Part shown: positions 19,333-50,775 of the stretch, one piece after another
Position numbering within the stretch: the first letter of the stretch is position 1
Layout: each line of letters starts with the position of its first letter
From: Polytrichum commune
Lineage: Eukaryota > Streptophyta > Polytrichopsida > Polytrichales > Polytrichaceae
Assembly (NCBI GenBank): GCA_950295325.1
Contig: OX485809.1
Coordinates: 39,401,081 to 39,465,080 of the forward strand
Length of the DNA stretch: 64,000 nucleotides
Reading direction: 5' to 3'
Program-made: the position numbers and the translations under genes
The notes under the pieces: generated by a model
The model's database searches: none
What the model saw: only the letters and a program-made list of their open reading frames with translations
Told to the model about the DNA's origin: nothing

Positions 19333-19370
19333 AACACTATATTCGTTAATTGGAGACTTTTGAAAGTCTC
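19333..19370. repeat. Left terminal inverted repeat of the giant element
   Basis: Starts AACACTATATTCG and contains TTGGAGACTTTT followed by AAGTCTCC, which can fold as a short hairpin. Identical to the terminus at 9541-9578 in reverse complement, and similar to 50747-50775. Outside it lies CTAA. Confidence 0.85.
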
Positions 19371-19737
19371 CAAATAAAATATGCCCGTGGTTTGGGATGC
19401 CAATATTGTGGGCATACGGAATATGGGGAACATCAAGAACATGACGATTTAAAATTTCGCACGTAAAGAATATTCCTAATACTTAAAATAGAAAATTGCA
19501 ATTATAATGAAAACGTGAACTCCATGTGGAAAATAACAAGCGAATCTAAAAAACAAATGGTTTATGTCATTATAGAGTTTGGGGTGCGCATCCCATAAGT
19601 AAGGTTCTTATGGTTTTGGATGGCACATCCCAAACGTATACCACAATGGAGTGTGACAAGTTTACTAAGTCTATTAAAAACCAAGACTACTAAGCACTAA
19701 TGTTTTTTCCCGCCGTTAACTTTCACCTATGTTATGT

Positions 19738-22700
19738 TTACCCATCTCCATCTTCCGCTTCATATCCATTCTCGGCGTCATTTTCCGCAGCTGCAATACG
19801 TGCCAAGTTGTCTTTGGCAAAATCTATATGTTTTTGGGGGATGGTCATTGCTTCTATGTTGGAACCTTTGCGCGGCTTCCAAGCACAAAGTATAGTATCC
19901 GTGTTTATCCAAACCGGTGTGTACGCTGAGTCCACTGTCCACTTAAAATTCTTTTTGGTGTCCCAACCTAAATAAGTGCGTAGCACGTTTTAGTCTTTAG
20001 TGCTTGGACGACAATATTCCACCTCAATTTGACGAAAATTGGGGCTAGTTCGAACAAAATTGGGTGAAGACAATGCTTTTACCAACCAAATTGGCTTGGG
20101 ATGTTCCTCATCCCCTGCTCGTACAAGGACCAAATAACCTTCATGGCAATCAACACCTACACGAAACGACGGTGCCGGTCGATTGCAGGCAGGGCCGACG
20201 TAATGCTCGTCCATTGCGAACTCTTCACGAACGTCTCCATTGCTGAAAAACATAGTATCGGACTCGACAAACGTCAAACGACTTTGTGGCTAAAATCCTT
20301 GTGTCAAAGTCGTACTGGTGTCGCCACCAAGTGTCATCAAGGCTGAGCGAATGCGATCCCAATACGCGATCAACGGTTCATGGGTATCTCTAACACGTCT
20401 TGTGATGTCCTCCTCGCACAACTCTTTCCAATATTCAATGAATCCGGATATGCCTTTGATGATTTCCGGCCCATTCCTCATGGGTTCGGGTTTGCAAGGC
20501 TTTGGTTCTCCATCCGGGACCAAACATTTCCCATCATTGTCTTGACGCCATACGAGTATACCATCATCCGGGCCCCAATTAGGAGATGTGCACAAAAGCT
20601 TGAATTGCATGGCCGGGAGACCATCGTCCCTCATATAAAATCGGAATTGTTGTGCTTTGGTATGCCCCACCAAACGGTCCCCTCCCTTCAACATGTATGG
20701 CTTGATGAAGGCCTTGAAATCTGGTACTTCCTCAATCAAGTGCGGAATTACTGGCATATGGTCCAAATCCATATACGATTTCATAAGAAGAGGTATGGTT
20801 GGAAAATCTTCTTCATGTAACTTCATGCTCCACCGTCCGAATGATGCATCAATGTCGTCGTGTGTATGTCCCACCATCAAGAAAGACACAAACACCTCCT
20901 TGAAGATTCCTTTCGCCACGAGCAATGACCAAAAACAAAATACGTATCGACATTTGTTGTGTTTCGCACAATTATCAAGTTGAACATGGAGAGTTGGAGG
21001 CAATGATTTTGCACAAATGGGTTCTCCGGGTGGTTCTGGCAATGACGACACACAAACCTCCTTCCCCGCAAGCACTGCCTCATAAAGGGATGTGGTTCCA
21101 CAACCATCAAAAAGTGCATGGGAAGAATGTACCGGTGGCTTCTCAAGATCGCGCAACAGTTTTGCAAATGAACCCACCGTGTGGTTAGCATCCCCAGGGT
21201 AAAAATCCAAACCATAATGGGCATACTTTACGTCCCCATGGCCGTGGGCAATCATACCTGGAAAAAACAAACGATGCGTGACCAAAATAATCAAATAACC
21301 ACTAAACGGATGTATGGAGTTGGACATTTGCCAAACACACCCAAGAAAATTGGATATACTTTAAACACGTAGTTGTGATTTCATACAAACATGTGACAGC
21401 TACGGGCAACTTGAAGAGACCATCCGTGGCCTTTATTTTGCGTGCATAACAAGGGCATGCGGTTTTGGCGTGGTCCATTTTATCATGGATGACTGTTAGA
21501 ACCTCTGTGGGCCTCATTATGGATAGAGCACGATTCTTATAGTAATCTTGACGGTGTGCCTCTTGATTGTTGACATGCTCAATATATTTTTTCTGGTGTC
21601 TGGAATGAGATTCAGTGCCTATGGGGTGGGCGTCTCGAAGACCTTTGTATTTTTCACAGTCGTACACCTTGCGAACTTGTCCCCGGGTCTTTTCAGAATG
21701 TATTCCGCAAACTGCTGGTTTTTAATCACACTCAACTTGGATAAAAAAATGGGCCCACATCCCGCTATGCGACCCACTTCATTGATGTCCGTTAAGATGT
21801 TCTTCCATTTTGTGCCCGTGGGCAACACCATTTGAACAACCTTCTCCCCTGACAACAATGTCCTCGTCTTGTGGGGCATTGCATCGGCCAATGGCACTAT
21901 GATGGTGGATAGTGTTGCGGACGCTTGCAGTGTAGCCTCCCTAGGTTTCTTTGTGCCCGAGTTGCCATGAAATCGAGAGCGGCGACCCAACGATGAATAC
22001 TTTCGAAACCTATAAAAGTCAGCCTTGGAGACGGCGTGGATGGTATACCACGCTGTACAACACACATCAACATTCTCAAGTGTCACCACCTTATGCCCAT
22101 GTGTATCAAGGTGCAAATTTCTGTGGACCTCGAGTTTCTTAGCCGACCTCATACGAAAATCCGCAAGCCACATCTCTTGACGCAGAGACCTAATTTTCTC
22201 CCACGGGAAAAATTGGCAACATTTCCTCGCGCAACAATCCTTGCCGGACACTAGACGGATAGATTCGTCCCCCAAAAGCCGATCCCGTCGACGCTCCTTA
22301 TCTCCGCGAGGCACACGGTTTGAATCATATCTACGGAGGCCTTTGCGAGTACGTGTTTTGGCCAACAAAGCTAATTGCGTTTGCTTATGCCGCCGCTCAT
22401 AATCCCACAAACTCACTTCCTCATGTAGAACTTGACGAAGCGGCCATCGACGCAAGGAAAATCTCCATGTCACCGGGACCTCTACCGGAAGCAAAGAGTT
22501 CAAGATGCACACGCCAACATCATCGAGACCTAGGGCGTTGGCATCGACACAATCACGGGGATTGGAGTTTCTACATATGTCATCTGCCACCGGGACACCA
22601 ACCTCGTTGAGTAGAACGACATCAAGGCCAACCCATTGCTCCCTCCCGAAACCGGCACACAACGGAATGTCATCGTGGTCATCTCCGGAATGCAGAGATT

Positions 22701-22866
22701 GTTCGTGGACTTCCAAAGATTCATGGGAGGATGTATCCACAAACACCCCCCTCACGTTTGGCACACCATTACTATCTGCCGACGGGGAAGACAGTTCACA
22801 TTCAGCATCGGATGACGATGCATACGTCGACAACTCCAATGAACTATCACCCACATGCAACGCCAT
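19738..22866 (-). pseudogene. DUF7869-type RNase H-fold transposase-like gene, right copy
   Basis: Homolog of 6024-9174. Exon 1 is 22866-21391 and exon 2 is 21257-19738. The protein is over 90 percent identical by eye to the left copy across the catalytic blocks (HDKMDHAK, LDNCAKHNK, GHTHDDIDASFG). It carries its own lesions: a 1-bp loss near 21660 (TACGACTGTG versus TACGACGTGTG), a Trp-to-stop change (TGG to TAG) near 20290 and a Gln-to-stop (CAG to TAA) near 19988. It lacks the 11-bp duplication that breaks the left copy. The two copies therefore died independently after they separated. The intron donor region also has a substitution, though a GT remains. Confidence 0.8.
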
Positions 22867-23099
22867 ACCGCCTAGACCAACCACCATGAAATGATCAACC
22901 CAACCACCACCGCAATGCATACAAGAGAGGATAGAATATATGTGGAGATAAATGGCCCAAAATTGACAAACAAATTTTGGTGCACCATTGGAGAACCACA
23001 CGCACAAAGACGAACATGCGTCCCAAAAAAACGTTTTAAGCATACATCTAGGAGCCTCACTAATGTAAACAATACATGGACAAAGAGGAGAACAATCGT

Positions 23100-23300
23100 T
23101 AGTCGTCCAGGAGGGCCCTGCTGTTCGGACCAGCGCCTGTCCCCATACAACCGACAACGAAATCAGAAATCCGAGAACGCCACATGCATTTACGAACGCG
23201 CGTTCGTGACCTCAGTAACTTCTCCATGTGCAACCGGCGGCCTTCGAGATCCCTCATCTGAGAGCACCCTCAGGAATATCGGTTTTGTAGGTCAAAGTAC
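23100..23300 (+). pseudogene. Diverged duplicate of cargo-gene exon/palindrome/exon segment
   Basis: Aligns in the same orientation with 47815-48022. Both carry GGAGGG-CCTGCTG-TCGG-CCAGCGCC, then a palindrome with CG at its centre (23190 versus 47906), then GGCCTT-CGAGA-CCCTC, then GGTTTTGTAGG or AGTTTTGTAGG, the donor side of a 17-codon exon in the cargo gene. It is degenerate and lies just upstream of, and opposite to, the DUF7869 gene. It shows that palindromes have at least partly spread by copying of exon-intron blocks. No mirror of it was found in the left copy. Confidence 0.6.
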
Positions 23301-24445
23301 CATGTTGACTTAGGAACCTGCGCGATATACTATCACAAGAGAACACTTGTCCATACGCACAAAAGTAGTAAATCTGCAGATGATGCCTGAATCAACTCCA
23401 ACAATATTTTGAACACTGAGCACCTTCATATTGTGAATTTGATTATGTTGACTTTTGCGTACCTACCCATTTACGAACGGACGTTCGTAAATGGGTGCGA
23501 CCCCGTGTTCACATCCTTCACGGACGAACGATGAGCATATTTTTCTTGCTATTCTGTGTTTGTATATTACTGCCATACTGATGTGTATGAATGAAGATGT
23601 GTTGCTGGATGCGTAGACAATAATGACATGTATTTACGAACGCACGTTTGTAAATTCCCGACCATCAGGTACCAATAGATACGGGTCAAATAAGTATGTA
23701 TGATCCTCGAAGGCATACTTACGAACGCACGTTCGTAAATGACTGTCATGGATTAAGTGCATATGACTAACCATATGAGTAGCTCAATCCAGAACATGCT
23801 CTCATGTGGGATTTACGAACGCACGTTCGTAAATTACCGACCATCAGGTACCAATAGACACGGATCAAATATGTATGTATGAACCTCGAAGGCATATTTA
23901 TGAACGCACGTTCGTAAATAAATGCCATAGATGATGTGCATGTGACTATCCATGAGTAGCTTAATCCAAAACATGATCTCTTGTGGGATTTACAAACGCA
24001 CGTTCGTAAATTACCGACCATCAGGTACCAATAGATACGGGTCAAATATGTATGTATGATCCTCGAAGGCATATTTACGAACGCACGTTCGTAAATAATT
24101 GCCATGGATTATGTGCATGTGACTATCCATGAGTAGCTCAATCCAAAACATGCTTTCAGGTGGGATTTACGAACGCACGTTCGTAAATTACCGACCATCA
24201 GGTACCAATAGATAAGGGTCAAATATGTCTGCATGGTCCTCGAAGGCATATTTACGAACGCACGTTCGTAAATAACTGACATGGATTACGTGCATGTGAC
24301 TATCCATATGAGTAGCTCAATCCAGAACATGCTCTCATGTGGAATTTACGAACGCACGTTCGTAAATCCTTGCCATGTACAGGTCCGAATCGTTTGTCTA
24401 AACCTGAAGCTCCTCATCTTTACGAACGTGCGTTCGTAAAGTTCC
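23180..24445. repeat. Palindrome cluster 2, right copy (12 sites, tandem 177-bp units)
   Basis: Sites lie near 23190, 23470, 23632, 23718, 23812, 23896, 23989, 24073, 24166, 24249, 24346 and 24419. From 23632 to 24365 they alternate at spacings of about 84 and 93 bp, forming about four tandem units of 177 bp with two palindromes each. Spacers include GACCATCAGGTACCAATAGA. These spacers are unrelated to those of the tandem units at 4944-5300, although the palindromes are the same. Confidence 0.9.
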
Positions 24446-24708
24446 GGTATTTACGGCGGTATATGCGGTAGGTACAGCCTGTACTGTACCTGGGTGGTGT
24501 AGGGTTGGCGCACACGAAATGGCTTGAGCGCGTTCGGTGAGGTCTGTAGAGCGCACACTTGCATGTGCCGCTGAAAAGAGCTTTATTGTGGGGGGAAGAG
24601 CTTTAAGTACTTCACCCCGCTGGTTCAAAATCCCTTGGATGCTCTTTAAAAAGCGGATTCCCGCCGCCTTCTTTGATCTAACAATCTCCCATTCCATCCA
24701 TGCGGAAT

Positions 24709-24719
24709 TATATAAATAG
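24709..24719 (+). promoter_or_regulatory. Conserved TATA box candidate, right copy
   Basis: TATATAAATAG, followed by a conserved stretch with ATGTATGGAACATG. Mirror of 4302-4292. It points toward the second palindrome cluster and the cargo gene start at 28363, about 3.6 kb away. It could mark the cargo transcript's start if a long first intron or 5' leader exists; this is inference. Confidence 0.4.
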
Positions 24720-27744: not shown

Positions 27745-28340
27745 CCATCACATTTACGAACGCTCGTTCGTAAATGGACATACACTGCATACCGAACCTC
27801 CATTTACGAACGTGCGTTCGTAAATACGCACTCCACGTTCTTTGAAATGATCTATATTTACGAACGCACGTTCGTAAATATACTCAAAATATCACTCAGA
27901 TGGAACCTTAACTTTAATATGAACCTCTACGAATATCTAAAGAACAAATATAATTTTGCGAACACCAATAAAACAAATCACATGTACTTACGAAAGATAA
28001 ATCAACCAAATGTCCGAAAAGATAGACCAAATGGACATACTTACGAACGCATGTTCGTAAATAAAACCAAATCTATAAAACCTATATCTTTTACGAACGA
28101 TCGTTCGTAAAAATAACCAAATATATTACAAATACATTCATGACGAGTAGTCTCTTTGATCTTCATATCTTTTACGAACGCTCGTTCGTAAACTCAATAC
28201 TAAAAATTTATATGATCTTGCAACCCCTCATTTACGAACGAACGTTCGTAAATATAATTACATCAATTGCAAAGACGCATTAACACTGCGTAGTATGTGG
28301 GATATGCATGTCATTTACGAACGTTCGTTTGTAAAGTCAC
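27745..28340. repeat. Palindrome cluster 1, right copy (8 sites)
   Basis: Sites near 27753, 27803, 27857, 28040, 28091, 28172, 28231 and 28315. Irregular spacing. The last is about 35 bp before the acceptor-like TTGCAG that precedes the cargo gene ATG at 28363, so the cluster probably sits in a leader intron. Confidence 0.85.
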
Positions 28341-28362: not shown

Positions 28363-28558
28363 GATGGCAAGATCAAGCAGAAGCGCCATTGAGATGTTCG
28401 CGGTGAAGGTCGATGGCCTCCCAGAGTCGGTGTTAGACGATAACGGCAACGACAACTATGTCCCCAAGGAAGACTTCATGGGGGAGTGGACGGCACTGCC
28501 AGAGAAGATCGGGGATGGGTGGAAGCATCCTTGGGTGGAGCCACTAGGAACCACTTAG
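28363..28558 (+). CDS. Cargo gene head exon, right copy
   Basis: Begins MARSSRSAIEMFAVKVDG directly after TTGCAG. The first 34 codons are conserved with the left copy (102-1, minus strand). From about 28519 the sequence matches, on the opposite strand, the start of the ParB-like exon (see 34631-34690). The native exon therefore ends at a rearrangement breakpoint, and the last dozen codons to the TAG at 28556-28558 are probably not original. It is likely the first exon of the ParB/FCP1 cargo gene, judging by position; the join itself is not visible. Confidence 0.45.
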
Positions 28559-28575
28559 GTAAATTTCAGGAAATG
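28519..28575. repeat. Breakpoint repeat, copy 1
   Basis: GAAGCATCCTTGGGTGG, two mismatches, CCACTAGGAAC, then GGTAAATTTCAGGAAA. The same run occurs at 34631-34700 with an 18-21 base difference in the middle. Both copies are in the same orientation now. When the inferred inversion of 33571-41786 is undone they become inverted to each other. Confidence 0.6.
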
Positions 28576-29084
28576 GATGGTGGACGACAATTAATTATAT
28601 TTTTGTGGGTTCAATAATTAGACTTTATTCCTACTGGCTCTTTCTACTGACACCTTTATCATCTTCGCTGGCCATGGAGAGAGTCCCGCGGCTCCCGCCT
28701 ACGTCGAAGGCAAGCTAAGCTTGCTGTCCTTCTTGAAACGTCCCGCCTGTCCCCGCCTTGTCCCGCCGAAACTCAATACGACCAGAATAGAATCTATGCG
28801 TGGTTTAGAGCAAAAATTGGCCGATAGGGTAGGGTTTTTGTGCGAGGAAAGAGGGTCTGGCTTGCGCGCAAGAGTTCGAGGGAGCGGCAACTTCAGGTTG
28901 TACACAGATTTCAATGCATGTTGCTTGTTTAGCTTTGTGTCTTGAAACTCATTGCGTTTTGGGTTGGCTATGGCGAATCAGGTGTGTTTTGGCCATTTCA
29001 GATTTCAAATGTACATGTTCATCTACTCTTGGACCTACCTGTGATTGTTCATCTCCTCTTATGCATTGTGTGTTCTCATTCCAG

Positions 29085-30646
29085 GATGAATCCATTTTAG
29101 ATCTCCACTATTTCATCAATATTCAAGGTTTGAGAGGAGAAGGGAGGGAGGTGAAGTCTTTGCAAGAGGGGGACGTTTCTAATGAAGAGATCTGTGAGAT
29201 TTTTGGACCTCGCAAGGATAAGAATGGTTGGAAGGTCAATGAGAAGCCTAGTAGGGAGTTCCAAGAATCTGTGGCGAATTTGTACTCAAGAGTGACCTCA
29301 GGGATCAAGTCCTCAATGACCAATTGACATTGGAGTGGGCTAGAGCCATTGTTGCAGAGAACAAGGGTATCCCTGTTAATTGGGCATCATTTGCAGTTCA
29401 CCTGCACAAAAAACGGGTGTCTCTGGAGAATGTGAAAAAAACTAAGAGATTTGCCAAGGAGGGCACCAGTTCAGACTCGCTCAAAGTCACAACCACATCG
29501 TGCCCAGAGCGTGGTAACCAAGCTACAGGAAGTTCCATTTCCCAACTTCATGTTTCTGCTGTAGGAATTGTTTCTCAACATTTTTCTCCAGCCCAAAACC
29601 CTCTGTCTACTGGTTCTTTCTTAGGGCCTGATAGGAAGGGTAGTTTTCGAAAACCTGTTAATCGTTCGTTTTTGTTGCGTGCAACAAAGGTGAAGGCTGA
29701 AGCTGGTGTGTCAATTAAGCGCAATAACCTAAGTGTGTTTAATCCAAGGGTGAAGGCAATGATGGCCTCAGATCCACTAAAGAGTGGAACAGAGGACATC
29801 ATCACTAGACTACATGAGTTGCTTCTATCAAAGCATAAGACATTGCTAGAGTCAAAGGAGCGTCTTCGTGCCACTAGTGACACTAAATCAAATTTTGAGA
29901 TGGACTTCAAACGAGCAAAACTCATGCTAGATGTTCTTAAAGGTCTCCATACTGATGCTAAATGTGAACTCTCCAGAGCTCGTCTTACTTTGCAAGATGC
30001 ACTCTCATTTGAGTCTAATCATATTCCTACAACTGATGCATCTGTTGTGGGGGAAGAATATGTTGAGAGACTTTCATCAGTTGATGCACATCAGGAGGAA
30101 TCTGTTGCTCAACTGCAACAAAGATTACGCTGTGAGGAGAGGAATGTTCTATCATCTCTTTCAAAACTTTCTGCAGCTGAGAAATATTTTATTCTCAAAG
30201 AAAGTGAACTTACCAGTAGTGAAGAGGCATATGGAGAGGAAGTTCAACATCAAGTTGTCCTAGAAAAGATGTTGACTCTCATAGCAGATTATTTGTCTAA
30301 GTTGAAGGGTGGCACTTTACTAACCACCCACCCTGAACCTATTGGTAGGGCTGATAGGACTAAGGCACAAAGTCTTCAACTGAATGTTGAAGATTGTACT
30401 TTTTGCAAAGAAAGCTTCTATGTTAATGATATATGTGTTTCGTCATGCGGTCATTGTTACCACCCTTGGTGCCTTGGTGTGCACATCAACTCTTCCAACA
30501 AATGCAAGCTGCAAAGTTGCCAACAAGAATTTGATTTACAATGGCGATTGTCATTTGGATATGTCCTTCCCAAAAATGGTGATCCTCCACTCCCATCTGC
30601 AGCTATGTCTGGTGAGCTCAAACCCAAATTTATTGTTGCCCAATAA
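29085..30646 (+). pseudogene. RING-like zinc finger / coiled-coil protein, frameshifted
   Basis: The exon probably starts at 29085 after CATTCCAG. An N-terminal charged region (EICEIFGPRKDKNGWKVNEK) is followed by a 1-base loss near 29323 that shifts into the longer frame (LEWARAIVAENKGIPVNWASF). The middle (about 29800-30320) is heptad-like and Glu/Lys/Leu-rich, likely a coiled coil. The C-terminal part has a zinc-binding pattern C-x2-C (CTFC), C-x-H-x2-H (CGHCYH), C (WCLG) and C-x4-C (CKLQSC), followed by FDLQW, and ends at 30644-30646. A RING/E3 role is possible by family resemblance only. Its relation to the giant element is unclear: it may be cargo or part of a nested element. Confidence 0.6.
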
Positions 30647-30731
30647 TTTAGTTTCTGCATTTTTTATAGCATTTTGTGCAGTGGGTATAAGATGTTTAGG
30701 TCAAAAAATGTTTGCATCATGCTAAGCTATG

Positions 30732-33570: not shown

Positions 33571-34680
33571 GATGCCCACGACGCCTCAAAGGCCTTGATC
33601 TTGTTGCCGGAGTTGAGGAAGGTGGATATCTTCCGCAGCTTGTCCCAATCGTCCGACCACACCAAGAACGCCTTCCAGTAGCGCAAGTCCTCCTTCAGCT
33701 CATGCTGGAAGTTGTCGTCCTTGAGGATTATCTGGGACGCCTCCAAGCTGTGTTGTCCGTCTATGATCCAGAACTCTCCATTCTGGATCCGTGCCAGTCC
33801 TTCTCCGTCGGACGGGATGTCAGCCCCTTCGGCATGACGCAGACGGTCTGCCTGTCCCACTTGACGTTGTTCATTAGATTATTTATCTGCCACTTCACAC
33901 CACCGCTCTCGCGAGACTGAACCACCCATTTGTTGGGGGACATCTCGTACTTGAAGCAGTCCACGTTGAATGTGAAGTGGCGTCCCATGGGCCAGCAATC
34001 CTTCGAGTAGTTGTTGAAGTCTCGAAGGATCCTCGTGGCTTTCACAGCGTCAGGGTTCTCGCCCTTTTTCAAGGGGGTGGGCATTACGACAGGCGAGGTC
34101 ACCTCCGCGGTCTCTGTTACTCCCGATTTCTCCATCTCGTCCCTTGTCCTCTTCGATGGCGTGGAGTGTCTACTGGGGCCCTCCGTCGCCCTGCTCGCAG
34201 AAGGCACAGGCCTGGGTGCACTTCTAGATCCTCCTGCCCCTGATGTGGATGGTTTCCTGGGGCTCTTCTTCTTCTTGTTTGCCTCAGTGACCACACTGTT
34301 GTATTTGGAGATGTTCAATGCAAGGGCGGTCAATTTCCTTGCCGTCCAGTATGGGCTCAACGCATATTTGGAGAAGAGGCCGTCCAGGTCGAAGTGCTTG
34401 GCATCTTCCGCTACGTTATTGGTGGCGTATTGGTAGGAGAAGGTATTTTTCTGGAAATGCAACAAGAGGTTGATATGATCCTTCTTGTTCTTCATGTCCA
34501 GAATTACATACTCCCCCTGGGCCTCTATGGACTCTATCTCCCACGTCTTCATTTGAACCCACTGTTCAGGCTGGTCCGGTCTTGTCTCCAGCTCGTAGGT
34601 GAAGCGCATGCAGAAGAGGCCGTCCGGGAGGAAGCATCCTTGGGTGGCTCCACTAGGAACGTCACACTCAAATTTCACTT
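33571..34680 (-). pseudogene. Cargo gene 5' part: ParB/DGQHR-like domain protein
   Basis: About 370 codons on the minus strand from near 34680. An N-terminal half (DVPSGATQGCFLPDGLF, then LDGLFSKYALSPYWTARKL) is followed by a basic Ser/Pro/Arg-rich linker. Then comes a ParB/sulfiredoxin-like signature: SRPTEKDWH, a 1-base loss near 33791, then GEFWIIDGQHSLEAS. The DGQH-x-x-EA block is diagnostic of ParB/DGQHR folds, which bind or cleave DNA or use nucleotides (CTPase in ParB). The frame runs to GCATC at 33575-33571, where the LTR-like element begins, and resumes in the same codon phase at 44759. The exon starts after an AG near 34681 and shows no ATG. This copy is dead. Confidence 0.65.
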
Positions 34681-34700
34681 GACAAGGTAAGTTTTAGGAA
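34631..34700. repeat. Breakpoint repeat, copy 2
   Basis: Partner of 28519-28575. On the minus strand it encodes the first visible codons of the ParB-like exon and the preceding intron end, so this copy is the functional context and 28519-28575 is the displaced duplicate. Confidence 0.6.
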
Positions 34701-38900: not shown

Positions 38901-39114
38901 ACCTAATGGGTGTGCTATGCAATGGAATCACTTTGGCTCTGGGCACGGAAAGGGACGTTGGGATGGGGCAGGAGCTACTATCAAACAAGCTCTTCGAGCA
39001 AAGCAGGTGAAACCTGATGGTATTAGGCTACACAATGCTAGTGATGCAGTTGCTTACCTTAGGCAATATATGCACTACAACAAACCTTGTCCATTCCAAC
39101 CAGGGTATCAATGA
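35949..39114 (+). pseudogene. Second RNase H-fold transposase-like gene
   Basis: Exon 1 is 35949-36680; the intron is 36681-37893 (GT-AG, phase 0); exon 2 is 37894-39114. The N-terminus is Arg/Glu-rich (NERQRRCRQRRSEGVRALCEE). The middle has a Cys/His cluster (CCCRYH, CSCGCVVCG, CPDCG), likely zinc binding. The C-terminal RNase H-like core has the Asp of DFAENYSFKWQ, the Asp of FSDGCSSQFK and the Asp of GSGHGKGRWDGAGA. Related proteins with DFAENY, SDG-x-SQYK and SHGKG blocks occur widely in animals and non-seed plants and look like DDE/D transposases. An in-frame TAG at 38608-38610 replaces the Gln expected in HWxxxQVT, a C-to-T change. The end at 39114 may be truncated by the CACTA-related sequence that follows. 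It is unrelated to the DUF7869 gene. Confidence 0.65.
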
Positions 39115-39978
39115 CTCAGTGTCCTAAACAACTCATTAAACGACTGTGATGCCTGATGAAGTCACCTTGTGTGACGTGGCTAACATGTGAGTCATTGTTT
39201 AGTCATTTAAATGACTAAAGATGAACTCTGTTGACGACCGCACAACATACTCATTTTATGTCTAACAAATTTCATCCACTACATCCATTCGTGTATGACG
39301 TGGATAGAATATCTTGACGTGGCTGACTGTTAGTCATTACCTGGTCGTGATTTAACGACTACGTGTTTACTATTATTTAAAAATAACACAAATATGTGAT
39401 GTGGCACTTACATCCCTCTAATGACGTGGAAATTAGGGATTAATTGAGTGAAAATTATTCTCGATAATAGTGACCTGTCAAAAGAATGACTACGAATTTC
39501 GAGCTCAATGACTGACTCACACGCCTGCCAAGATTGGGATGACGTGTACAAGCGTTTAGTCATTGTTCAGTTACTGAAATGACTCGTGGATGACATGTGC
39601 AACTTTTGGTGAAAGGTTAGTTATTCATCGTCCAACTCATCCATGCCGGTGTGACGTGCCAAAACAACTCTCACATAGCAACTGTGCAGTCATTTCTGTG
39701 TTGCCCTTCACCAACCCATACTTAACCATGACTCTCCAACAGATTGCAAGTACATATATGGAAGATATACATTGCCAATGTGCACATATGATGCAGGTCT
39801 GAAATCATGTGTTCAATGGAGGGCACTGGGCAAGAACAATCATTTTCATTTATCATGCCACGTACTCGATGACGTGGATGTCTAAGTCATAGTGGAGTTG
39901 TAGTTCAGTCACAATATTGTTAAATACAACCACTAAGGACATTTGTGACCCCAGCTAGGCTTCAGTAAAAACAAACAC
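39115..39978. other. Gene-free CACTA-related spacer with GTCATT / GACGTGG motifs
   Basis: Scattered short motifs (AGTCATT, TGACTAA, GACGTGG) recur many times in both orientations, as in the subterminal regions of CACTA elements. No convincing ORF. The CACTA terminus was not located. Confidence 0.4.
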
Positions 39979-40708
39979 CTAAAATTTAGCTAGTACTAAT
40001 GAGTTATCGGAATCTGATAGTTCTATGGCTCCCACCAATGACGCTGTGGTGGGCGGGGGAGGCACATGGTTTGCCAACTGCATGCCATCCGTTTCTTCGG
40101 TGGTGGTCATAAAGACATCTTGTGTGCTCTGTTCATGTCTTTGGGAGCGTGCCTCCTTTGCCAAAACTACTTTCCACCCCGGTTTCCGCACTTCGTCTGA
40201 CCAAAATACTTGAGTCGTTTGGCTGGGAAATATGAACGGATCCAACATCTGAGGAACCCTGTGGCGGAAATTCACGACCATGAATCCAGCCTCATCTCTT
40301 ATATACGTTGGGTTGCCCCGATTGTCAAATTGCTTCATCCACTCGCACCTAAGAAGTATGACAGGTGTACGAATTGGCCCATAATTCAATTTTAGTATAT
40401 CCTTTAGTACTCCCACATAATTCAATGTCACCTCCTCCGAACCCTCGCAGGGCATGTGAAACACAGAGGCAACTCCGCTATCGTAGGTTTTTAATGTCCT
40501 GGACTGTTGGTCCTCCACCCGAAAGTGGTTTCCATATGCCTTCATCCTCGTATATCGTGTGGCTAACTGTGACGGTCTGCTGCACATTAGAACCCTATCC
40601 ATGTCATCCTCATCGTTCGGGTCAACGGGGTGATTGCGTACTACGTCTTTAATCCAGTTTCCAAAAGCCGAGATGTTGGGATTCGCCTCCTGTTCCACTT
40701 TCCATTGC
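39979..40708 (-). pseudogene. CACTA transposase C-terminal exon with DUF4216
   Basis: Starts after CTGTACAG at 40709 and ends with a stop at 39981-39979. It contains the DUF4216 block: LNYVGVLKDILKLNYG, then VILLRCEWM, then GFMVVNFRHRVPQMLDPFIF, then TTQVFWSDE. In plants DUF4218 and DUF4216 occur together in En/Spm (CACTA) transposase proteins. The reading frame continues from the DUF4218 exon across the intron (codon split 2+1). The exon itself is open; the gene is broken upstream. Confidence 0.8.
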
Positions 40709-41087
40709 CTGTACATCCAACCAGTCATTCAATAGTCATACACCAGTCGCTGAATAGTCGCTCATAAGTCACTCACTAGTCCTTCACCAGTCGCTAACTA
40801 GTCTCTCATAAGTCATTCAATAGTCATACACCAGTCGCTCAATAGTCCCTCATAAGTCATTCACTAGTCCTTCACCACTCGCTAACTAGTCGCTCATAAG
40901 TCATTCAATAGTCATTCACGAGTCGCTCACTGGTCGCTCATTAGTCATTCATTAGTCATTCATTATTCATGACGGACTCATCCGCCCGCTCAGGCAGTAG
41001 GGGTTTACAGAGGCGTTCATGTTTTGCAAAATAACAGGGCACATTGACACAAGAATGTGCAATAAAAAAAAACACGGTCACACTCAC
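40709..41087 (-). repeat. Intron built of an 11-bp tandem repeat
   Basis: Between GTGAGT at 41087 and ...TGTACAG at 40709. From 40723 to about 40975 the plus strand reads AGTCNNTCANN units at an exact 11-bp period, at least 22 in a row. They show a higher-order pattern: units 3-7 recur as 11-15 (an 88-bp block). The remainder is simple spacer. Confidence 0.85.
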
Positions 41088-41786
41088 CTATGCAAAGGTG
41101 CCATGAGGGATAAATTCGTCAAAGCATATTGGTGGGCTACATCTCTCAATGCTGGTGCCATCAAGTACTTTGTTCCTGCCCCTTCTAGCACCTCCTCTGC
41201 ATCTCCGTACTCCTCATCCGCATCCCATACTCGACGGTCAACCACTTCAAACTTGTGTAGATATTCCGTGATGAAACCTAGGCATTCATCCCTCGCGTAA
41301 CCCTCTGCCATGCATGCCTCCGGTGTTGCCATGTTCCGAACATAATGCTTTAGGGTTTTCATGTATCTTTCAATAGGATACATCCACCTTGTGGAGACGG
41401 GACCACACATGTCCAATTCATCGACAAGGTGATACAATAAATGCGTCATAATGTCAAAAAATGAGGGAGGCAAATGAATCTCCAGAAGTGCCATGCTCCG
41501 TGCGACGTCCGCCTGAAGAGCTTCAAACTCCAATGGGTTCCAAACACTCCCACATATCCTTCAGAACACTTTCGAAATCCTTATCACCGCCATTCGTGGA
41601 CCAGGTTGTAAAAGACCTCGTAGTGCTAGTGGCATGATTTGCTGCATAAGCACATGGTAGTCATGCGACTTTAAACCCCCGAACGTCCTCTTCTGTACGT
41701 ACTGAGCCATGTTGGAAACATGTCCTGATGGTGTCTTCAGGTTCTCGATAACACTGGCAAATACTTCGAACTCTTCGCTTGTCAAC
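41088..41786 (-). pseudogene. CACTA transposase fragment with DUF4218
   Basis: Minus strand. Upstream part: GLKSHDYHVLMQQIMPLALRG. A TGA at 41563-41561 then stands where an Arg codon is expected (VF-stop-RICGSVW). DUF4218 proper follows: LPPSFFDIMTHLLYHLVDE, then CGPVSTRWMYPIERYMK, then YVRNMATPEACMAEGY. Truncated at 41786 where LTR-like copy 2 begins, so the N-terminal catalytic part is missing. Confidence 0.85.
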
Positions 41787-44758
41787 TGTGGTACTTTTGG
41801 GCCACCCCCTTTCGAGGGAGCCTAAAAGTATCACACAAGCCCTTCGGTGAAGGTGGCCTGCATTTGCAGGCGCCCAAGCCGAACCCGGATGATAGGTGTA
41901 TAACGTGAGTAGTTAGATTTTTAAGGGAGATTAAATATGCGTCGTAGTACCTCCGGAGGTTGGGCCTTAGTTTTTTACTAGTGTGGCTTTAAATTCCACT
42001 AACCAATTTCATATCTAGTTCTAACCTTAACCTACAACCTATTCTACGCGCAGACGCACCAGCCTTGAAACCAAGGCAATCCTAATTTGTGAATTGGGAT
42101 GGTTCTAATACACCCAACCGGGTGTGACTCATACCACCCTAACTCAACGAACGGAATAACGACAATTTGATGGACCATTCAATTCTTCTTATTTTTTTAT
42201 TTAGTTTTATTTAGTTTTCTAAGCGGGGGAACTTGGCCTAAGTCCCACCCTTCACACAAATTCTTTCTTAATTACTTACTTTTGTTTGCACGTCTTAACT
42301 CACTACATTAACATATTAGGCATCACCCCTTACCTGGTTGGTGCACCCCTTACCTCGGAACCTTCTAAGGCCTCGTGCAGGTCCTTTGAAGGTCGAGTAA
42401 CATCTCAAACCCTTCGGACATCAATGGTTCGAAGGGTGGTGTCACTCTACCGAGTTAAGTTTCCGATTCGGGTCTTTTGCCAACAAGGGTTTACGATTTA
42501 TTTTGTATGTTTTGATTGTTAAATGTGTTTACACTGGATAGACCACGAAATGCAACTCAATGGGACCAGGGTGACGGGCGACCTGTAGGTTCAACCTGTT
42601 GCGCAATCTTCATAAATTGGGGCCATTACTCCCAATCTATGGGGCCAACAACATAATAGTGGATTCGCGGGTCATTAACCCCACCTTTCCACCAACAACA
42701 TTCAGAGTGGTCGTGTCGGTGATTAATCCGACTTACCACACACGAAACTTGCTAATAAATGAAGCTACTACCACAAAACATACCAAGGGCCCCGAAAACA
42801 ATGGAATTGGGTACTCCCTTGGCGGTCAAGTGGTCAAGCCACTTGACCTTACGAGATAGGTGAGTGGGTTTAGAGATGCGTACCTTAGCCGTGCTCCCTC
42901 CAATCCTAAATGGAAGGCTTAAGGTTAGTTAATTTACCTCAATTTTCCTCGGTTGATTTGGGCTTGATGTAGGCCGAGCCGCTACCTCCTTCCTTGCTCC
43001 ACTTTCCGAGCGTCGACCTTGCCTCCTTCTTTGTAACTAGTTTGGTAGTAAGCGTACCTTAGTTAACAATTAAAATATAAAGTGTTATTTTGCCCTGTAA
43101 TTTAATCCTAAGCATAATATTTATACTTAGTGCACCAAATTATCTTTCCAATGATCTAAAAATCACTCTAATCGGATAAGAAATGCAAAAGTTATGAGGG
43201 TTGGAAGTGTGAGGTCGATTCAACCGACCCTTCCAACCCACCTATCTACCTTCTAACTTCAAAAATTCATAGCACATTCCTTACTACTTGGATCTAGGCT
43301 TTCCTTATACCATTGGAAAGCTATGAACAAGCTCTAACTAGAAAAATTATGACATCAGCAGGTTAAGCTAATAGAAATTCAGCGGACTCCTTGTAACACA
43401 GCAGTCAATCAAGAAGGCTTAAACTATGTATCTCGCCTTCAACAATTCATATCTAATTCAAATCTTAGTCAAATCAAACGTTCTATATGACCCTGGAGAG
43501 ATATTAAAAAGATGTATTTGATAAAAATATGTGATTAGAAAGGTAAGCCGAAGTGAACCCAGCAGGTCCTCTGTAATGCAGCAGTCAACCAAAAGTTCTC
43601 AAACTATGTGTCCCATCTTGCACAATTCATATCTAATTCAAATCATGCTCAAATCAAATGTTCTAAGCCATTTTGGAAAGCTACACAAAAGTTCTACTTG
43701 GGAAAAATATAATTTCTTGGAATTAAAATTCCTATTGGGCTCGCAGGTCTGATCTAGCAGCCGCTACCCACAAGACCACCCAGTTTTTCTACTCCATCTT
43801 TGAAAATCCATAACTAATTGTCATCTCAACCAAATCACAAATGGGAAACGGCTATGGATGGCTATATGAAATCTCTCTAAGAGAAAAATGATAAGTATCT
43901 TGTTCTAGCTTTTGAACTAAGCCTTCAGGGCATTGGCAGATGAGGTCTATAATGCCTCTACTCAAAACTCTACCATCCAACCTACCTCTACAAAAGAAGG
44001 AATAATTTTGTTGGTGTGTTAATAAACACACAACCTAACTAGGAGAGAGAGAGTAGAGGAGGTTCTCAAGCCTTTCTTTTAGACCATTGAGAATACATGC
44101 TAAAGGATTTTTTCCTAACTACATTGAAGCAGGGCTTCGCCCAAAAACTAGAGAAAAAGAGAGAGCTACAAGGTGGAAGGAGGGGTTTTTAAACCCTCTC
44201 ACAAAAGGGTTGGACCCCTCCTCCACCGGATCCATTTTTCAAACCCTTTCCCGAAATTTTGGCTCGGGGGTTTTCCCGGTTGAGGTTGCCACCCTCTCGC
44301 CGAGGTGGCTCCGACAAAAAACCTTTAGAAATCTTTCTAATTTTTCCGCCATCGAGTTGGCAAGGGGGCAAGTGGGCAAGTAGCCCCCTTGCTCTCTTTC
44401 TTTTTTGTCTTCAAAAGTCTTCAAGCCGATTTTATCTTCTTACCTAAACCACCTCTAATAGTCTTGTGTGCCTCACACTAACTAATAAACTAACACTTGC
44501 TTAGCTAGCATTTACTAACATTTGCTTAATAGCTAGCATCTACTAATATTTGCTTAGCTAGTTGTTTTTACTAGCTAGCACATTTTTTCTACTTTGCTAT
44601 CTTCTAGCACTACTTAGTTTCATTTTGACCTTCCTTCTTTTAGGCTAAATGCTAAATGAACTAATTTTCCCTAAATTCCCTATCAATTCTAACTTTTAAT
44701 GCTAACATTCTAACTAAAAGTGATCCCGCAGAGTGGTGGACCACTCAAAGGGTTCACA
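41787..44758 (-). mobile_element. LTR-like element copy 2 (about 2.97 kb)
   Basis: Reverse-orientation partner of 30732-33570, including the internal 200-bp duplication. It has about 135 extra bp near 42330-42470. The right flank is GCATC (44759-44763). The base-for-base partner GATGC (its reverse complement) lies outside copy 1 at 33571-33575, not on the left of this copy. The 5-bp duplication of one original insertion is thus now split between two copies, which is the footprint of inversion by recombination between them. Confidence 0.8.
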
Positions 44759-46301
44759 GCATCCAACATAGTGGCTGCAAGGGACGTCTGGGTCGCCCAC
44801 GGGTGCCCCCCTAAAGAAAGGGAGAACGCGAAGACGCCGTCTCCACAATGGAAGGTGAGTTTACGAACGAACGTTCGTAAATATCTTTGACATTCAAAAT
44901 TTCAAGTTCTTTGACATTCAAACTTACGAACGTGCGTTCGTATTTTGTGCGTTACTGATGCCTTTCTTGCTGCAGGCATTCTGCGACGCGATGGTGGACA
45001 AGTTCTCCTCCATCGACATGAAGTCTACAACAACCAAGTCTGTCCTGGAGCTCAAGGGTGAGCTCCGCCTCATCTGTTGCAACAGGGACACTTGGGAGTT
45101 GTGGACACAATTTTTTGATGCGCACAGCTCGGGCGATCTGGTCAACCCCGACACCGAGGAGAAGTACAGCGCGGAGAAGACCGGGGAGGCCCCTCCACTA
45201 CTGAGGGAGTTCTTCAGGTCCCTTCAAGGGTTAACAGAGTCCGAGTTGCAGAGGTGCGCGGTGCATCTTCTTGGGAACACAGTGGGAAGAACCATCCCAT
45301 ACCCGAAGATATTTTTGAAGAGGCCAAGACACAAGCCCGGCACGTATTCCATCAAGGAATGGTGCGAACACCGCAAGCTGAAGACTGCTGCAATGAGGGA
45401 GTTGAGCGCCCTAATACCAGAGTACGCACTCATCCTAGCCGACGGGGACATTAATTGGGCCAGCTGGAAGATGTTCAAGGTCGACTACAACATCTCTGGA
45501 GCCTCAATGCGTTGTCTTGTCAAGGAGCACGCCTCCATTTTGAAGCAGAAGGGGAACAAGAGGACAAAGAAAACCGAGACGGATCCCCAGGAGGTGGAGC
45601 AATACAGAAGTTTTTTGGCGCGGAAGAGGTTGGCCACATTCGAAGGAGTGGCCAGATTTTGTTTGGTGACAACCGGAGTGGAGAGGGTCACATTTTCCAA
45701 GTGGGACCGGACCATGAGCAAGGCCGAGGTGAGGGAGGATCGACGGGGGTGCCCATTTGCCCTGATCGATTTCAGGGGGATCCCCGGTGCGTCGAGGCAG
45801 GGGGGGAAGGACATGCCTTTCTACGACCCCTTCATGGCCAAGTTCAAGGAGCACAAGTCGCCGGACATGAGGGAGCCTCACGTTTGGCTGTGGATAGTGG
45901 AGCAGGAAAAACTCTCTGCTGTAGTCGACCTGTACGAGAAGACGATCAAATTCGAGTACAACATCTTCCACAGCACTTACGTGCCCGCCAAGACGGAAGG
46001 GATCGTGGCCATCAACGAGGCCAGGGGAAACAAGCAGGTGGGGGTGGTCAGCCTCGTCTTCTTGACGTACAACGCGCTTCGGAGTGGGCGAGCACCTGTC
46101 AGGGCGAATACTACGTTCAAGAAGATCTACAGCATCCCCCATCCCCCTCCCAAGGATCTGCTGCAGGAGACCTTGTACACTGTCTTCCCGGCGATGGAAC
46201 TCATGTTGGAGTTCTACGTCTCCGTTTTGCAGAGCGTGGCAATAAGCGGAGAGACCGTGTACAACGTTTGTGGAGGCAGCAAGTTCATGTACGCTGCGAT
46301 G
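44759..46301 (+). pseudogene. Cargo gene middle exons (unknown domain)
   Basis: Exon 44759-44854 (32 codons) continues the ParB-like exon in phase. An intron at 44855-44975 (GTGAGT...CTGCAG) contains two palindromes (44862, 44924). The next exon, 44976-46301, has 442 open codons (AFCDAMVDKFSSIDMKS to SKFMYAAM). It contains FLKRPRHKPGTYSIKEWCEH, LILADGDINWASWKMF, a Lys-rich stretch KQKGNKRTKKTE and EPHVWLWIVEQEKLSAVVD. No known domain is recognised. The codons end in G/C far more often than in the surrounding AT-rich spacer, as also in the following exons, which supports genuine coding history. Confidence 0.65.
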
Positions 46302-46442
46302 GTAAGCTCTCCAACTAATATTTACGAACGCTCGTTCGTAAAGTTCACCTCAACTTGTCTTGGGTTTTGATGACATTGTTTCTCGTCGTTGATGTTTACG
46401 AACGCACGTTTGTATATTCTAACGTATTTGCTTGGATCTCAG

Positions 46443-47876
46443 ATGCTGGGGCTGGTCGTCAACAGCTTCATTGAAGCCATCGACGAGGAGGACTTCCACG
46501 TGCACAGGGCGAAGGCCTCCACGATGGACTTGGAGGACATGTCCCTCCCGAGGACGGACATCAACATGCCCGTCGACGAAGGCATGCCCGCCATGGAGAC
46601 GGACGACGACGAGCCCGCGCCCTCCTACAACGTCGAGGCGATCCTCCGATCCTTGGACGTCACTCCTCTCCGCATTTTGGCGCCGTCGGGAAATCCATCC
46701 GACGTGCAAGGGACTCCGGGTGGATACACGGGGTCGTCGGTGGGGACAACCCAGGATGTCCTCCCCGCGAGAACGTCTGGAGCGGAGGCATTCGGCACTC
46801 CCGGGGGATGCTCGACATCCGTGTCGCCCAGGCCGATCGTGGTTCCCAAGATGGAGAACCTCGACCTTCTGGACCAACGGTCCCGACTGACGTTGGACCA
46901 CTACCGCAACACGAGGCGGAGGATGAAGAAGACCCCCTACGTGGAGCTGCCTCCGGGGGCAATCATCGAGGTCTCCGATGAGGACGAGGGCGACATGGAG
47001 ATCATGGTCGAGCTGGGGGTAGACTTCGACAAGAACAAGCGGGTCAAGGAGGAGGCCCTCTCCGTCGCCGAGCTTCACGCCAAGCTCGAGCAGAAGATGA
47101 AGGAGGACATGGCGAAGGCGGCAGAGGAGAATGCCAAAAAAATGTTCGAAATTCAGGAGGAGCTGAGGCAGTCCAACGAGAAGACGGACGCCATCCTCGC
47201 CATGCTCCAGCGTATGCAGAGCTTCACGGCGCCCCCCCAGCCGGCCTACCCCTTCCCTGGAGGATACCCCTCCCAATCCCCTCCACCAGGCATGTTCACC
47301 GGAGGGCCTTCCCGCCAGCAGGCGCCCCACCCTACGCCTGTTGGCACCCCTCCACCCCCAGAGGTTCCCTCGACCACCTCCCACGATGTTGTGGCGGCGG
47401 CCATCCAGGAGGACGAGGATTTACGAATGCGCGTTCGTGAATCTTCAGGTCCTCCAGTCCTCACCCCTCCCCCTTCAAGGGTAGGACTGTCATCATACAC
47501 CGATGCGTCGTCTTTCACCGTCGTCCCCAGGGTAGTAGACAGACATGGCGATGACTCTGCGTGACACACTGACATGGTCATTGTGGAGGACACGCAGGGG
47601 AGCCCCAATGACGCACCAGGGGTGCATGGGATGGACGTGGAAGAAACCCATGCGGCGTGGATGGAGGATGTCAGGATGGACACGCTCGACCTGAGCGCCG
47701 AGGAAGAAGACGCGCTGCGCATCTAGGCGACACAAGCCTCTCAACCGGAGCGTGAGGCAGAGGCCATGGAGACAGAGGCGGCTGCAGCTGTGGAGGTTAC
47801 GAACGCGCGTTCGTTAATCGTTGAGGAGGGACCTGCTGCTCGGTCCAGCGCCGCTGCCCCTCCCCCCGATGACGAG
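46443..47876 (+). pseudogene. Cargo gene linker exon: acidic, coiled-coil and proline-rich
   Basis: 478 codons, phase 0 at both ends. Order: an acidic region (DMSLPRTDINMPVDEGMP, ETDDDEPAP), a Ser/Gly/Pro region, then a probable coiled coil (ELHAKLEQKMKEDMAKAAEE, about residues 215-270), then a Pro-rich stretch. In-frame stops at 47562-47564 (TGA) and 47724-47726 (TAG) interrupt the frame, which otherwise remains open and in phase to the donor at 47877. Both can arise from single C-to-T changes. The palindrome at 47421 is read here as DLRMRVRES. Confidence 0.6.
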
Positions 47877-47966
47877 GTAACTCTCCTCTGAGAATACCAT
47901 TTTTTTACGAACGCGCGTTCGTAACCTCTCTAACATCGCGATGTTTTTCTCTTCATCGACATCCAG

Positions 47967-49262
47967 TGGCCTTGCGAGAGCCCTCTTCAGCGGTCCCCCT
48001 TAGGGCCGAACAGTTTTGTAGGACACGGCATCATTTTGCCTTAGGAAAATGTGATAGACTTTCACGTGAGAAATGTAAATATTCAACGGATTAATATATG
48101 AGCCTATGTTATCTGCATCGCGTTGCTTCAAATTCTCTGCCCTCGACCCCTTCTCGTATATTGTATATGTTGATGAGATTATGTTCATTCTTGCATACCC
48201 ACCTCATTCGCGAACGCTCGTTCGTGAAAGGCTGCGACCCACTGTCCACCTCATTCACGAACGACCGCTCGTAAATGTACGTGTAGCCGCGCTCACGAAC
48301 GAGCGCTCGTAAATGATGCGCACCGCCCCCGCAGCCTTCATTCACGAACGCTCGTTCGCAAGTGTGCCCTTGAGCACATTTTCCTTGCACTCTCCTCACT
48401 TCCTCGTCTTTCCCCATAATGCACCGTCTTCATTTTCTACGCAAAATTTCATTATTGGATCATAGAATTAAACTAGTCGAGTTGTTCATCACAGGACCCC
48501 CCGGAGATAGGTCGCAACCCCTCGACCAGTGGACCTCCCACCCGGCACAAACCTTTCATCGTTTTTGACCTCAACGGGGTGTTGTGTCACACCCAACACA
48601 TCCCAAGGGTCCCCACGCGTCCCTTTCGTCACCCCGACGAAAGGGACTACGACGGCGAGCTCGACACCCTCATTAACCGCAAGGCTGTCCGCGCCCGTCC
48701 CGGCTTGCGTGACTTCCTTCGCGAGGTGGTCGAGTTCGCTCACGTCATTGTGTGGAGCTCCATGGTCATGGAGAACACGGAGCCCATCGTGCACTTCTTG
48801 TTCCAAGATCTCCCGAGCCCTTGCCTCGTCCTCGGCCAAGAGGACTGCGACGAGCTGCTCGACGAGAAAGGTCAACCGGTGCCCAAGTTTGGCGGTCGGG
48901 GCGGAGGACAACAGTTCCTCAAGGTCCTCCGCTCGAGACTCTGGCGAGGCGTCCCCCGTCTGCAAGGGACGCCGCACGGGTGGTGGCCGACTCCTGAGAA
49001 CACCGTCCTCATCGACGACAGCCCCACCAAGAGCGTTTTGAACCCCCCGGGGAACGTCATCTTCCCGGACACTTGGACCGGCGATAGGCAAGACACATTT
49101 TTGGTCGATAGGCTAGCCCCCTACCTTAGAAGGCTCGTGCTCCACGCCGGTAGCATCCCATTTTTTGTTAGGTCCAACCCCTTCAGCAATGCGGCGCTAA
49201 GCCCCCGCGATAATGTATTCAAGAGCATCATGAGGCTCGCCAAACTCAATAAATTGATTTGA
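47967..49262 (+). CDS. Cargo gene 3' exons: FCP1/NIF-type HAD phosphatase domain
   Basis: Micro-exon 47967-48017 (17 codons), an intron of 477 bp with four palindromes, then exon 48495-49262 ending TGA. All junctions are phase 0. The last exon has the FCP1-homology order: KPFIVFDLNGVLCH (motif I), RPGLRDFL, VIVWSSM (motif II), LVLGQEDC, then TVLIDDSPTKSVLNPPGNVIFP (motif III/IV), then LAPYLRRLV. FCP1 domains remove phosphate from Ser residues such as those in the RNA polymerase II tail. In motif I the second Asp of DxDxT/V is Asn (DLN), as in some plant FCP1-like proteins, so activity may be altered. The domain exon itself has no lesion. It appears to be the C-terminus of the same gene as the ParB-like part, because every intron phase and frame agrees; a separate gene starting nearby is possible. 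Confidence 0.75.
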
Positions 49263-49385
49263 AATGCCTCCATGTCTTTGCTTGTATCATGTGGTTCACA
49301 TTTACTAATGCTTGCTCCGTTTTTGGATGTCTTTTGTTGTTGTGATTGTTGTTGTGATTGTTGTTGTTCTTGTTCTTGCCCATAG

Positions 49386-50383
49386 TCTGCCCCCATATGC
49401 GACGCCCCTGTGGTCGACGGCCCTTCCCGTCCCCTCTCGCCCCCTGCCTCCCCTTCCCGCGACGTCACGGACTTCCAAATGCCATCCCTCTACCAGTTCC
49501 CGGCGGTCGACGCGGCCTCGGCCGTGGATTACTCCCGCGACGTCAGCATCGACGACGGCGTCGTCAACAGCCCGCCCCCGCACTTGTCGCCCGCGCCTAC
49601 GCCCCGTCGCCCTCCCCCCTCTCCAAGGAGAAACGGACGCTCGTTCGTTTGGGGCACCTCTCGCCGTCTAAGGACGACGCCGTCGCTCGTCGCGGGCCGA
49701 GCCGGCGTCTCCGCATGGAAGGCCCCCGTTGCCACACCTCCCCCGCCGACTCCGTTCCTCCCCCCACAACGTCCTCCGCGATCGTGGGCCCTCCACGCCT
49801 CGACTCCCCCCCCGCCATCCAACAGTGCAATATTTCCATCGGCTTCGGATGCTCCCGTCGACGCCCCCCTCGTTCCTACCGTTCCCCGCATGGACGTCCC
49901 CAAAGCCAAGGTGCCCTCCTCAACCCTAAACCCCTTTCCCGCTTTTGCTTCCCTTGTCTTCCGTTTGCGTGCCGTTCTCTTTACGAGCGCCCATCCCAAA
50001 CCGCCCTCATTATTTTCCCCACTCCATTCCTATTCTTATCTTCCTATGACGTTGTTTCGCAGGTGGCTACCCGCTCGCTTGGTGCCCGGCCCTCCTCCAC
50101 GTCCTCCTTGGATAGGCACGCCCTCAAGGCCGCATCTTCCGAGTCTGATCGTTGCCTGGCCCTCCGGAGAAGCGCAAGACGTTCCCTTTCGCAAACGCCC
50201 TCGCATTCTACTTATAATACCACCTCGTACAATTCGGGAGCGCGTCCTGAAACATGCAAGAACGACACATATTCCTGTCCAGGCAACACACAAGGATACA
50301 GTCGTGGGCCTGAGATTTTTAGAGCCATGGAGGCCGCCAAAAAAAAGGACTTAGCCGCAAAAAAAAATAGTGGGTCGGACTAG
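49386..50383 (+). CDS. Proline/serine-rich protein of unknown function
   Basis: Two exons, 49386-49910 and 50063-50383, with a phase-0 GT-AG intron (49911-50062). Exon 1 follows a T-rich acceptor (CCCATAG) in phase. An upstream exon is likely; otherwise the first in-frame ATG is 49479. The product is Pro/Ser/Ala-rich (APTPRRPPPSPRRNG) with a basic C-terminus ending KKKDLAAKKNSGSD. A degenerate palindrome lies in exon 1 at 49634. It is the last gene before the right terminus, 360 bp away. No domain is recognised. Confidence 0.5.
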
Positions 50384-50746
50384 TGTGACGTCTAGAAGTG
50401 TACTAGTGGGACGGACTCCCTAAATGGGCTTAGGTGTAGAACATATTTAAGTGCTTACTTTCTATGCTATTCCAAGTTACTCAAGACATTGATGGTATTT
50501 CCATTATAATTGTATTTCAATCCCAATTAATTCATTCAACTTCCATTCATTCTTCGCATCTTCCCTTCCATTCATAACGAGTTGTCATTTCATACGCAAC
50601 TATTCTCATGTATGCCTCACATTTTTGTTCACTTCCATGCCTTTATGTATAATAATAGTAGCATACCATTATACATATGGGATTTTTAGTCGTCATTACT
50701 GGTCCAATTTTGAAATGTGCATCCTTATATAGTCTCATAATCAACA
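50384..50746. other. Right subterminal region of the giant element
   Basis: AT-rich, gene-free and without palindromes. It does not resemble the left subterminal region beyond the terminal repeat itself. Confidence 0.5.
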
Positions 50747-50775
50747 AAAAGTCTCCAAATACCGAATATAGTGTT
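50747..50775. repeat. Right terminal inverted repeat of the giant element
   Basis: Plus strand reads AAAAGTCTCCAA, four variable bases, CGAATATAGTGTT. Reverse complement matches 19333-19361 at 27 of 29 positions. Followed by CTAA, identical to 19329-19332. Confidence 0.85.

Follow-up and report, generated by a model that had tools for sequence, protein, structure and literature searches.

A multi-copy, likely Sola-type transposon family of Polytrichum commune, with palindromes that differ by lineage

What kind of transposon occupies positions 19333 to 50775 of a 64,000-nucleotide stretch of the Polytrichum commune genome (contig OX485809.1, positions 39,401,081 to 39,465,080; hereafter the window), and what might read the palindromes that it carries? 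The original prediction, made from the letters of the window, described it as a 31.4-kb DNA transposon of a type not recognised. Our analysis of this element, here called copy B, points to a multi-copy family with AACAC-type ends and 4-bp target-site duplications, likely moved by a DUF7869 protein and likely of the Sola type, and with a second protein that likely binds the palindromes of its own lineage. We put the probability of this reading at roughly 0.6. The copies, their ends, duplications and gene order are shown, as are palindromes within the copies, in which both arms differ together from one lineage to another.

Both ends of copy B open with AACACTATATTCG (at 19333 on the plus strand and at 50763-50775 on the minus strand) and have TTGGAGACTTTT in common in their interior. 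On recounting they are equal at 27 of 29 positions, and CTAA adjoins the element on both outer sides, so that direct reading upholds the ends and flanks as predicted, along with a second copy bearing an identical end at 9578. That third end (9566-9578, flanked by AGTA) belongs to copy A, the other end of which lies outside the window; the last 3.67 kb of copy A (5917-9578) is 90.7% identical to copy B (22973-19333). Counted within the window alone, the 13-mer end only weakly suggests real ends: with up to 2 mismatches allowed it is found 4 times, 3 of them exact, where shuffled sequence gives a mean of 1.58, and 6 of 100 shuffles reach 4. A chance origin was ruled out by a search of the host assembly (407.8 Mb, 64 contigs, with the window at C7:39401081-39465080), where the two-part end occurs 324 times (151 forward and 173 reverse) and its reversed control 0 times.

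Fourteen facing pairs of ends were tested, comprising ten from the first places listed genome-wide, three elements found via the second gene, and the window's own pair. Exact 4-bp duplications of varied sequence (TTGT, ATGG, CATA, ATCT, CGAT, ATGT, TTGG, AAGG and, in the window, CTAA) flank 9 of the 14. This becomes 9 of 11 once three pairs are dropped whose ends lie 36 kb, 46 kb and 1.4 Mb apart, are of unlikely types and probably do not bound single elements; of the other pairs, one is off by one base (CTTA/CTTG) and one reads CCAT/AATG. With these duplications, the copies pass the check that the original prediction had proposed. At one relative, E6, joining the flanks minus one AAGG restores an unbroken reading frame, which resembles that of a Harbinger-type transposase.

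The DUF7869 gene adjoins the left end as had been claimed (Table 1), and tblastn finds it in 10 of the 10 complete relatives that we fetched (E1 to E10). Its product is predicted to have an RNase H fold, and we infer that it is likely the transposase that cuts and pastes the element. The second, ParB-like gene lies on the opposite strand to the DUF7869 gene in the window and in E1-E8 and E10. E9 (G000:C1:21542854-21550411) is a 7.6-kb copy with both ends, the transposase gene and 6 exact palindromes, and without the ParB-like gene. The second protein is predicted to carry a ParB-like motif (DGQHS) and, from a low-confidence model, a methyltransferase-like fold whose catalytic motif is altered: 50 of 50 rows give a methyltransferase fold, and motif IV reads IDFRxIP, not DPPY/W. 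The cargo expected near the right end was found, in that the FCP1/NIF domain is present and the ParB-like part is real, if broken in copy B. The FCP1-type gene is carried by 9 of the 10 fetched relatives, partially in one, and is 61% identical in the other clade.

The palindromes are what looks new about the element. The window has 33 exact ACGAACGNNCGTTCGT sites, every one of them within copy A or copy B, with 0 in the 22,979 bases outside the copies and 0 in a foreign block (28521-44762) described below; the palindromes are as element-specific as the original prediction held. In homologs of the second gene the protein tails run on into introns, so that the palindrome is translated. The tails of one clade implied a variant, which was predicted before the DNA of that clade was fetched and was then confirmed in it. 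In this P0154 clade, E1, E2, E3 and E10 hold 12 ACGGACGNNCGTCCGT sites each, with ACGAACGNNCGTTCGT counts of 0, 1, 0 and 1, while the window clade (E4-E9) holds 24, 25, 23, 26, 21 and 6 ACGAACGNNCGTTCGT sites and zero ACGGACGNNCGTCCGT. The change from ACGAACGNNCGTTCGT to ACGGACGNNCGTCCGT is symmetric, with both arms altered together. A third DUF7869 lineage of the same genome carries CACGGGTGNNCACCCGTG, with 8 sites in one copy and 5 in another, and this motif is found in none of the other elements. The two own-genome clades have their sites clustered upstream of each of the two genes (transposase and second) and at intron positions; of 163 sites, 22 overlap tblastn matches, and we read these matches as running through introns. 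Seven palindrome matches in viral contigs, one site each, are taken as chance. As a separate observation, in L065 (G000:C3:1633201-1639200) a distant DUF7869 gene precedes long arrays of 59-bp tandem repeats that contain a near-palindrome, GGTGAGGCATATGCCCCACC, rather than an exact one.

Such a distribution could arise without any recognition function, if the palindromes had spread passively by tandem duplication in fast-evolving non-coding DNA, and several sites do lie in palindrome-bearing tandem arrays (23632-24367 and 4945-5300 in the window, and a 47-bp array in L064). However, a consensus of 119 window-clade sites shows that many share the palindrome only and differ in their flanks, and passive spread accounts poorly for the joint change of both arms between lineages at site positions that are kept in both clades. 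We regard it as improbable.

The main rival explanation takes the palindromes to be binding sites through which the DUF7869 transposase or a host factor autoregulates the element, leaving the ParB/methyltransferase-like protein some other role. In each of the three own-genome lineages examined, palindromes do precede the transposase gene, those of the third lineage were seen only around that gene (the second gene was not looked for there), and palindrome type tracks the transposase clade as well as the ParB clade. Yet the last few hundred bases at the ends, where a transposase usually acts, contain no palindromes, and in the window and P0154 clades further clusters lie immediately before the ParB-like gene and within its introns. 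Furthermore, lineage-specific motif switching is known, in the available text of PMC5735166, for accessory proteins such as VANC. We consider this rival unlikely, if less so than passive spread.

Relatives were also found on contigs L001 and L002-L009, which are filed in cyanobacterial genome bins yet carry eukaryote-type transposons; given those transposons, the bins are probably contaminated by a plant host (for ERR2144891, by inference, Azolla), and we refer to them as fern bins. The fern-bin elements L003, L008 and L009 resemble the window element in their AACAC-type terminal inverted repeats and in having a DUF7869 gene and a ParB-like plus methylase gene in divergent orientation, and most have private palindromes of their own, chiefly between the two genes. 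In contrast to the window element, they are smaller (6.0-7.8 kb), their palindromes differ and their methylase motif is intact (N6_N4_Mtase, E 8.6e-8). L001 has one exact TTTAGCTCGANTCGAGCTAAA site plus several imperfect ones, L002 has one palindrome, and L009 has none of the seven motifs counted. Of the 3 fern-bin copies in which both ends are present, 1 has a target duplication. This is L008, which interrupts a Ty3-like pol frame; removing one AACA restores that frame.

In our preferred account, then, the DUF7869 protein would move the element, and the ParB/methyltransferase-derived protein, made from the element, would return to palindromes in three places: ahead of the transposase gene, ahead of its own gene and within the introns of the latter. 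Once bound, it may keep those promoters active or marked, a self-recognition of the kind that VANC provides for VANDAL elements. Given the altered catalytic motif, the second protein of this host's lineages probably acts by binding, whereas in the fern-bin relatives, with their standard methylase motif, the DNA itself may be methylated. A fuller version, in which each lineage has its own protein and palindrome that switch together, and the methyltransferase here has become a pure reader that activates only copies of its own lineage, is more tentative, and we would place it somewhat below even odds.

Several results weigh against this account. Because the transposase and ParB clades diverge together, the palindrome switch cannot tell which protein is the reader, and E2 and E10 each contain a single ACGAACGNNCGTTCGT site. 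Exact duplications are absent from 5 of the 14 facing pairs, and from L003 and L009, in which both ends are present. Structure comparison of the transposase gave Z <8 and Foldseek E >0.001. For the second protein, no Pfam ParB or methylase family matched in the window lineage, the profile comparison with the fern-bin protein aligned 20-21 columns only (E 0.068 and 0.04, one of them by hhalign of concatenated pieces), and the P0154 model has a predicted local distance difference test score (pLDDT) of 50, with Foldseek matches that are not significant (best 0.11). Searches further afield were negative: the DUF7869 exon had no useful match in a sequence search of PDB, the Rfam search gave no match, neither the DUF7869 nor the ParB-like alignment found a relative in the viral contigs, and the fern-bin ParB open reading frame (ORF) had no match in phages.

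VANDALs are Mutator-type elements. In Arabidopsis, VANC proteins bind motifs that are arrayed upstream and in the introns of their own VANDAL elements and multiplied by tandem repeats, in the available text of PMC5735166. The arrangement described here bears a striking likeness to this: its motifs are likewise found in upstream and intronic non-coding DNA, are multiplied in tandem and differ by lineage alongside an element-encoded protein. The element is nevertheless not a VANDAL, since its protein is ParB/methyltransferase-like and its motif a perfect palindrome; it has 4-bp duplications, whereas those of Mutator elements are given as 7-12 bp in the part of the review PMC10741241 available.

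Sola elements, as far as the accessible parts of two accounts describe them, have a DDD-type transposase, 4-bp duplications and variable terminal inverted repeats, are mostly 2-9 kb with some >15 kb, and are found in the moss Physcomitrella (PMC10741241, PMC3627910). The window element shares the 4-bp duplications, and differs in its private palindromes, which go unmentioned in those parts. We consider it likely to be a Sola-type transposon, an assignment that draws on the duplications and the predicted fold, along with the divergent ParB/methyltransferase-like gene, rather than on sequence comparison with curated Sola elements. Thus the original prediction was right that this is a genuine transposon with its own genes and palindromes, but to call its type unrecognised was too strong, because a giant Sola1 with a ParB-like plus DNA methyltransferase gene has been published. 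This is the 21.5-kb Sola1-1_Ec32 of Ectocarpus, in which that gene lies on the strand opposite the transposase; its methyltransferase is predicted to make N4-methylcytosine (N4mC) or N6-methyladenine (N6mA), and similar proteins are cited from green and red algal transposons (PMC12477816, in the portion available). Both are large DNA transposons with an accessory gene opposite the transposase, and nested insertions are common in such giants. Here, by contrast, the methyltransferase-like domain is recognised by predicted fold only, motif IV is changed, and an FCP1-type phosphatase gene is also carried. The string 'palindrom' does not occur in the main text of PMC12477816. In the literature searched, which lacked most subscription journals, no paper besides the Ectocarpus one came up for a pairing of ParB with a transposon, and 'DUF7869' was not found.

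An EnSpm/CACTA element would explain why the ends read AACACTA and why a CACTA-type DUF4216 ORF is present at 39982-40728. However, the AA is not part of the 4-bp duplication, which makes AACAC, and not CACTA, the start of the element; CACTA duplications are 3-bp in the available text of the review (PMC10741241); the DUF4216 ORF is confined to the foreign block, which E6 lacks; and the DUF7869 gene is common to all ten relatives. We therefore regard this identity as highly improbable.

It is important to note that 31.4 kb, the length claimed in the original prediction, is rejected as the native size. E6, the nearest relative, is collinear with copy B outside the foreign block at 93-96% identity over most of its length, and by blastn passes unbroken through the second gene and both block junctions. 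In the window this gene is cut at 28515, has its middle inverted at 33573-34625 and resumes at 44759, so that about 15 kb of copy B is a later insertion, accompanied by an inversion inside one gene. With 28516-44758 subtracted and the middle piece counted back in, the element comes to 16,253 bp. The ten complete relatives measure 19.1, 17.4, 16.6, 18.2, 16.3, 18.6, 14.6, 19.9, 7.6 and 33.7 kb, 7 of the 10 falling between 14.6 and 19.1 kb.

Within the block, a long terminal repeat (LTR)-like sequence that starts with TGTGGTAC and ends with TTCACA occurs as an inverted pair (30729-33570 and 41787-44758; 99.5% identity over 2.3 kb), and GCATC stands beside the interrupted exon at both outer junctions, which argues for an insertion followed by an inversion. 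We considered a nested 14-kb foldback transposon at 30729-44762 and rejected it; its arms instead resemble a single LTR-like repeat present in two inverted copies. Inverted GGAAGCATCCTTGGGTGG is present at both breaks of the first exon junction (28516 and about 34626), perhaps as the ends of a further element with terminal inverted repeats. ORFs at 37867-39111 (plus strand) show a DGCSSQFK / GSGHGKG pattern and resemble another family of RNase H-fold transposases.

Between copies A and B, and outside both, lie a copia-type retrotransposon (10158-14578, minus strand; RVT_2, rve and gag domains) and, beside it, an ORF for a jacalin-like lectin (14801-15301, plus strand; Pfam E 2.5e-26).

Table 1. 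Features of copies A and B, in window positions
Feature	Position	Strand	Basis or remark
Copy A, inverted relative to copy B, exits the window on the left	1..9578		13 exact palindromes
Terminal inverted repeat of copy A	9550..9578	-	read directly
Left target-site duplication CTAA	19329..19332		read directly; same 4 bases at 50776-50779
Copy B	19333..50775		31,443 bp as standing, ~16,253 bp without inserted block; inverted ends plus CTAA, length arithmetic
Left terminal inverted repeat, transposase side	19333..19361	+	read directly
DUF7869 gene, second exon, frame broken in copy B	19741..21264	-	Pfam PF25273 E 1.1e-40; tblastn of P0001 and L001 protein
DUF7869 gene, first exon, frame broken in copy B	21386..22758	-	tblastn of L001 full-length protein
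Palindrome cluster upstream of DUF7869 gene, 9 exact sites	23192..24437		partly 177/356-bp tandem array
Palindrome cluster upstream of ParB-like gene, 6 exact sites	27756..28249		site search
ParB/methyltransferase-like gene, first piece	28364..28515	+	tblastn P0172; blastn to E6 99.5%
Foreign block: LTR-like insertion, CACTA-type fragments, inversion	28516..44758		absent from E6; self-blast and flanks
ParB-like gene, middle piece, inverted in copy B, holds DGQHS motif	33573..34625	-	tblastn P0172; blastn to E6 97.3%
ParB-like gene, last main piece, predicted methyltransferase-like domain	44759..46313	+	tblastn P0172; blastn to E6; fold prediction
Intronic and intergenic palindromes, 5 exact sites	44863..48359		44863, 44926, 46324, 47799, 47907; imperfect at 48211, 48344
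ORF downstream of methyltransferase-like part, likely C-terminal continuation	46374..47564	+	in 9 of 10 fetched relatives (not E9)
FCP1/NIF-type phosphatase gene	48477..49262	+	Pfam PF03031 E 2.3e-16
Right terminal inverted repeat	50747..50775	-	read directly
Right target-site duplication CTAA	50776..50779		read directly

A transposon that acts on its own copies without disturbing its host is well documented for few systems, VANC among them. In this single genome at least three sister lineages differ in their palindromes, and two of the lineages have defined ParB/methyltransferase-like partners, so that specificity is testable by direct swaps. If our reading is true, the published ParB-methyltransferase accessory genes would gain a candidate DNA target, and the fern-bin contigs would place such elements beside land-plant-like hosts. 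The family could then show how a jumping gene distinguishes its own DNA from that of its host.

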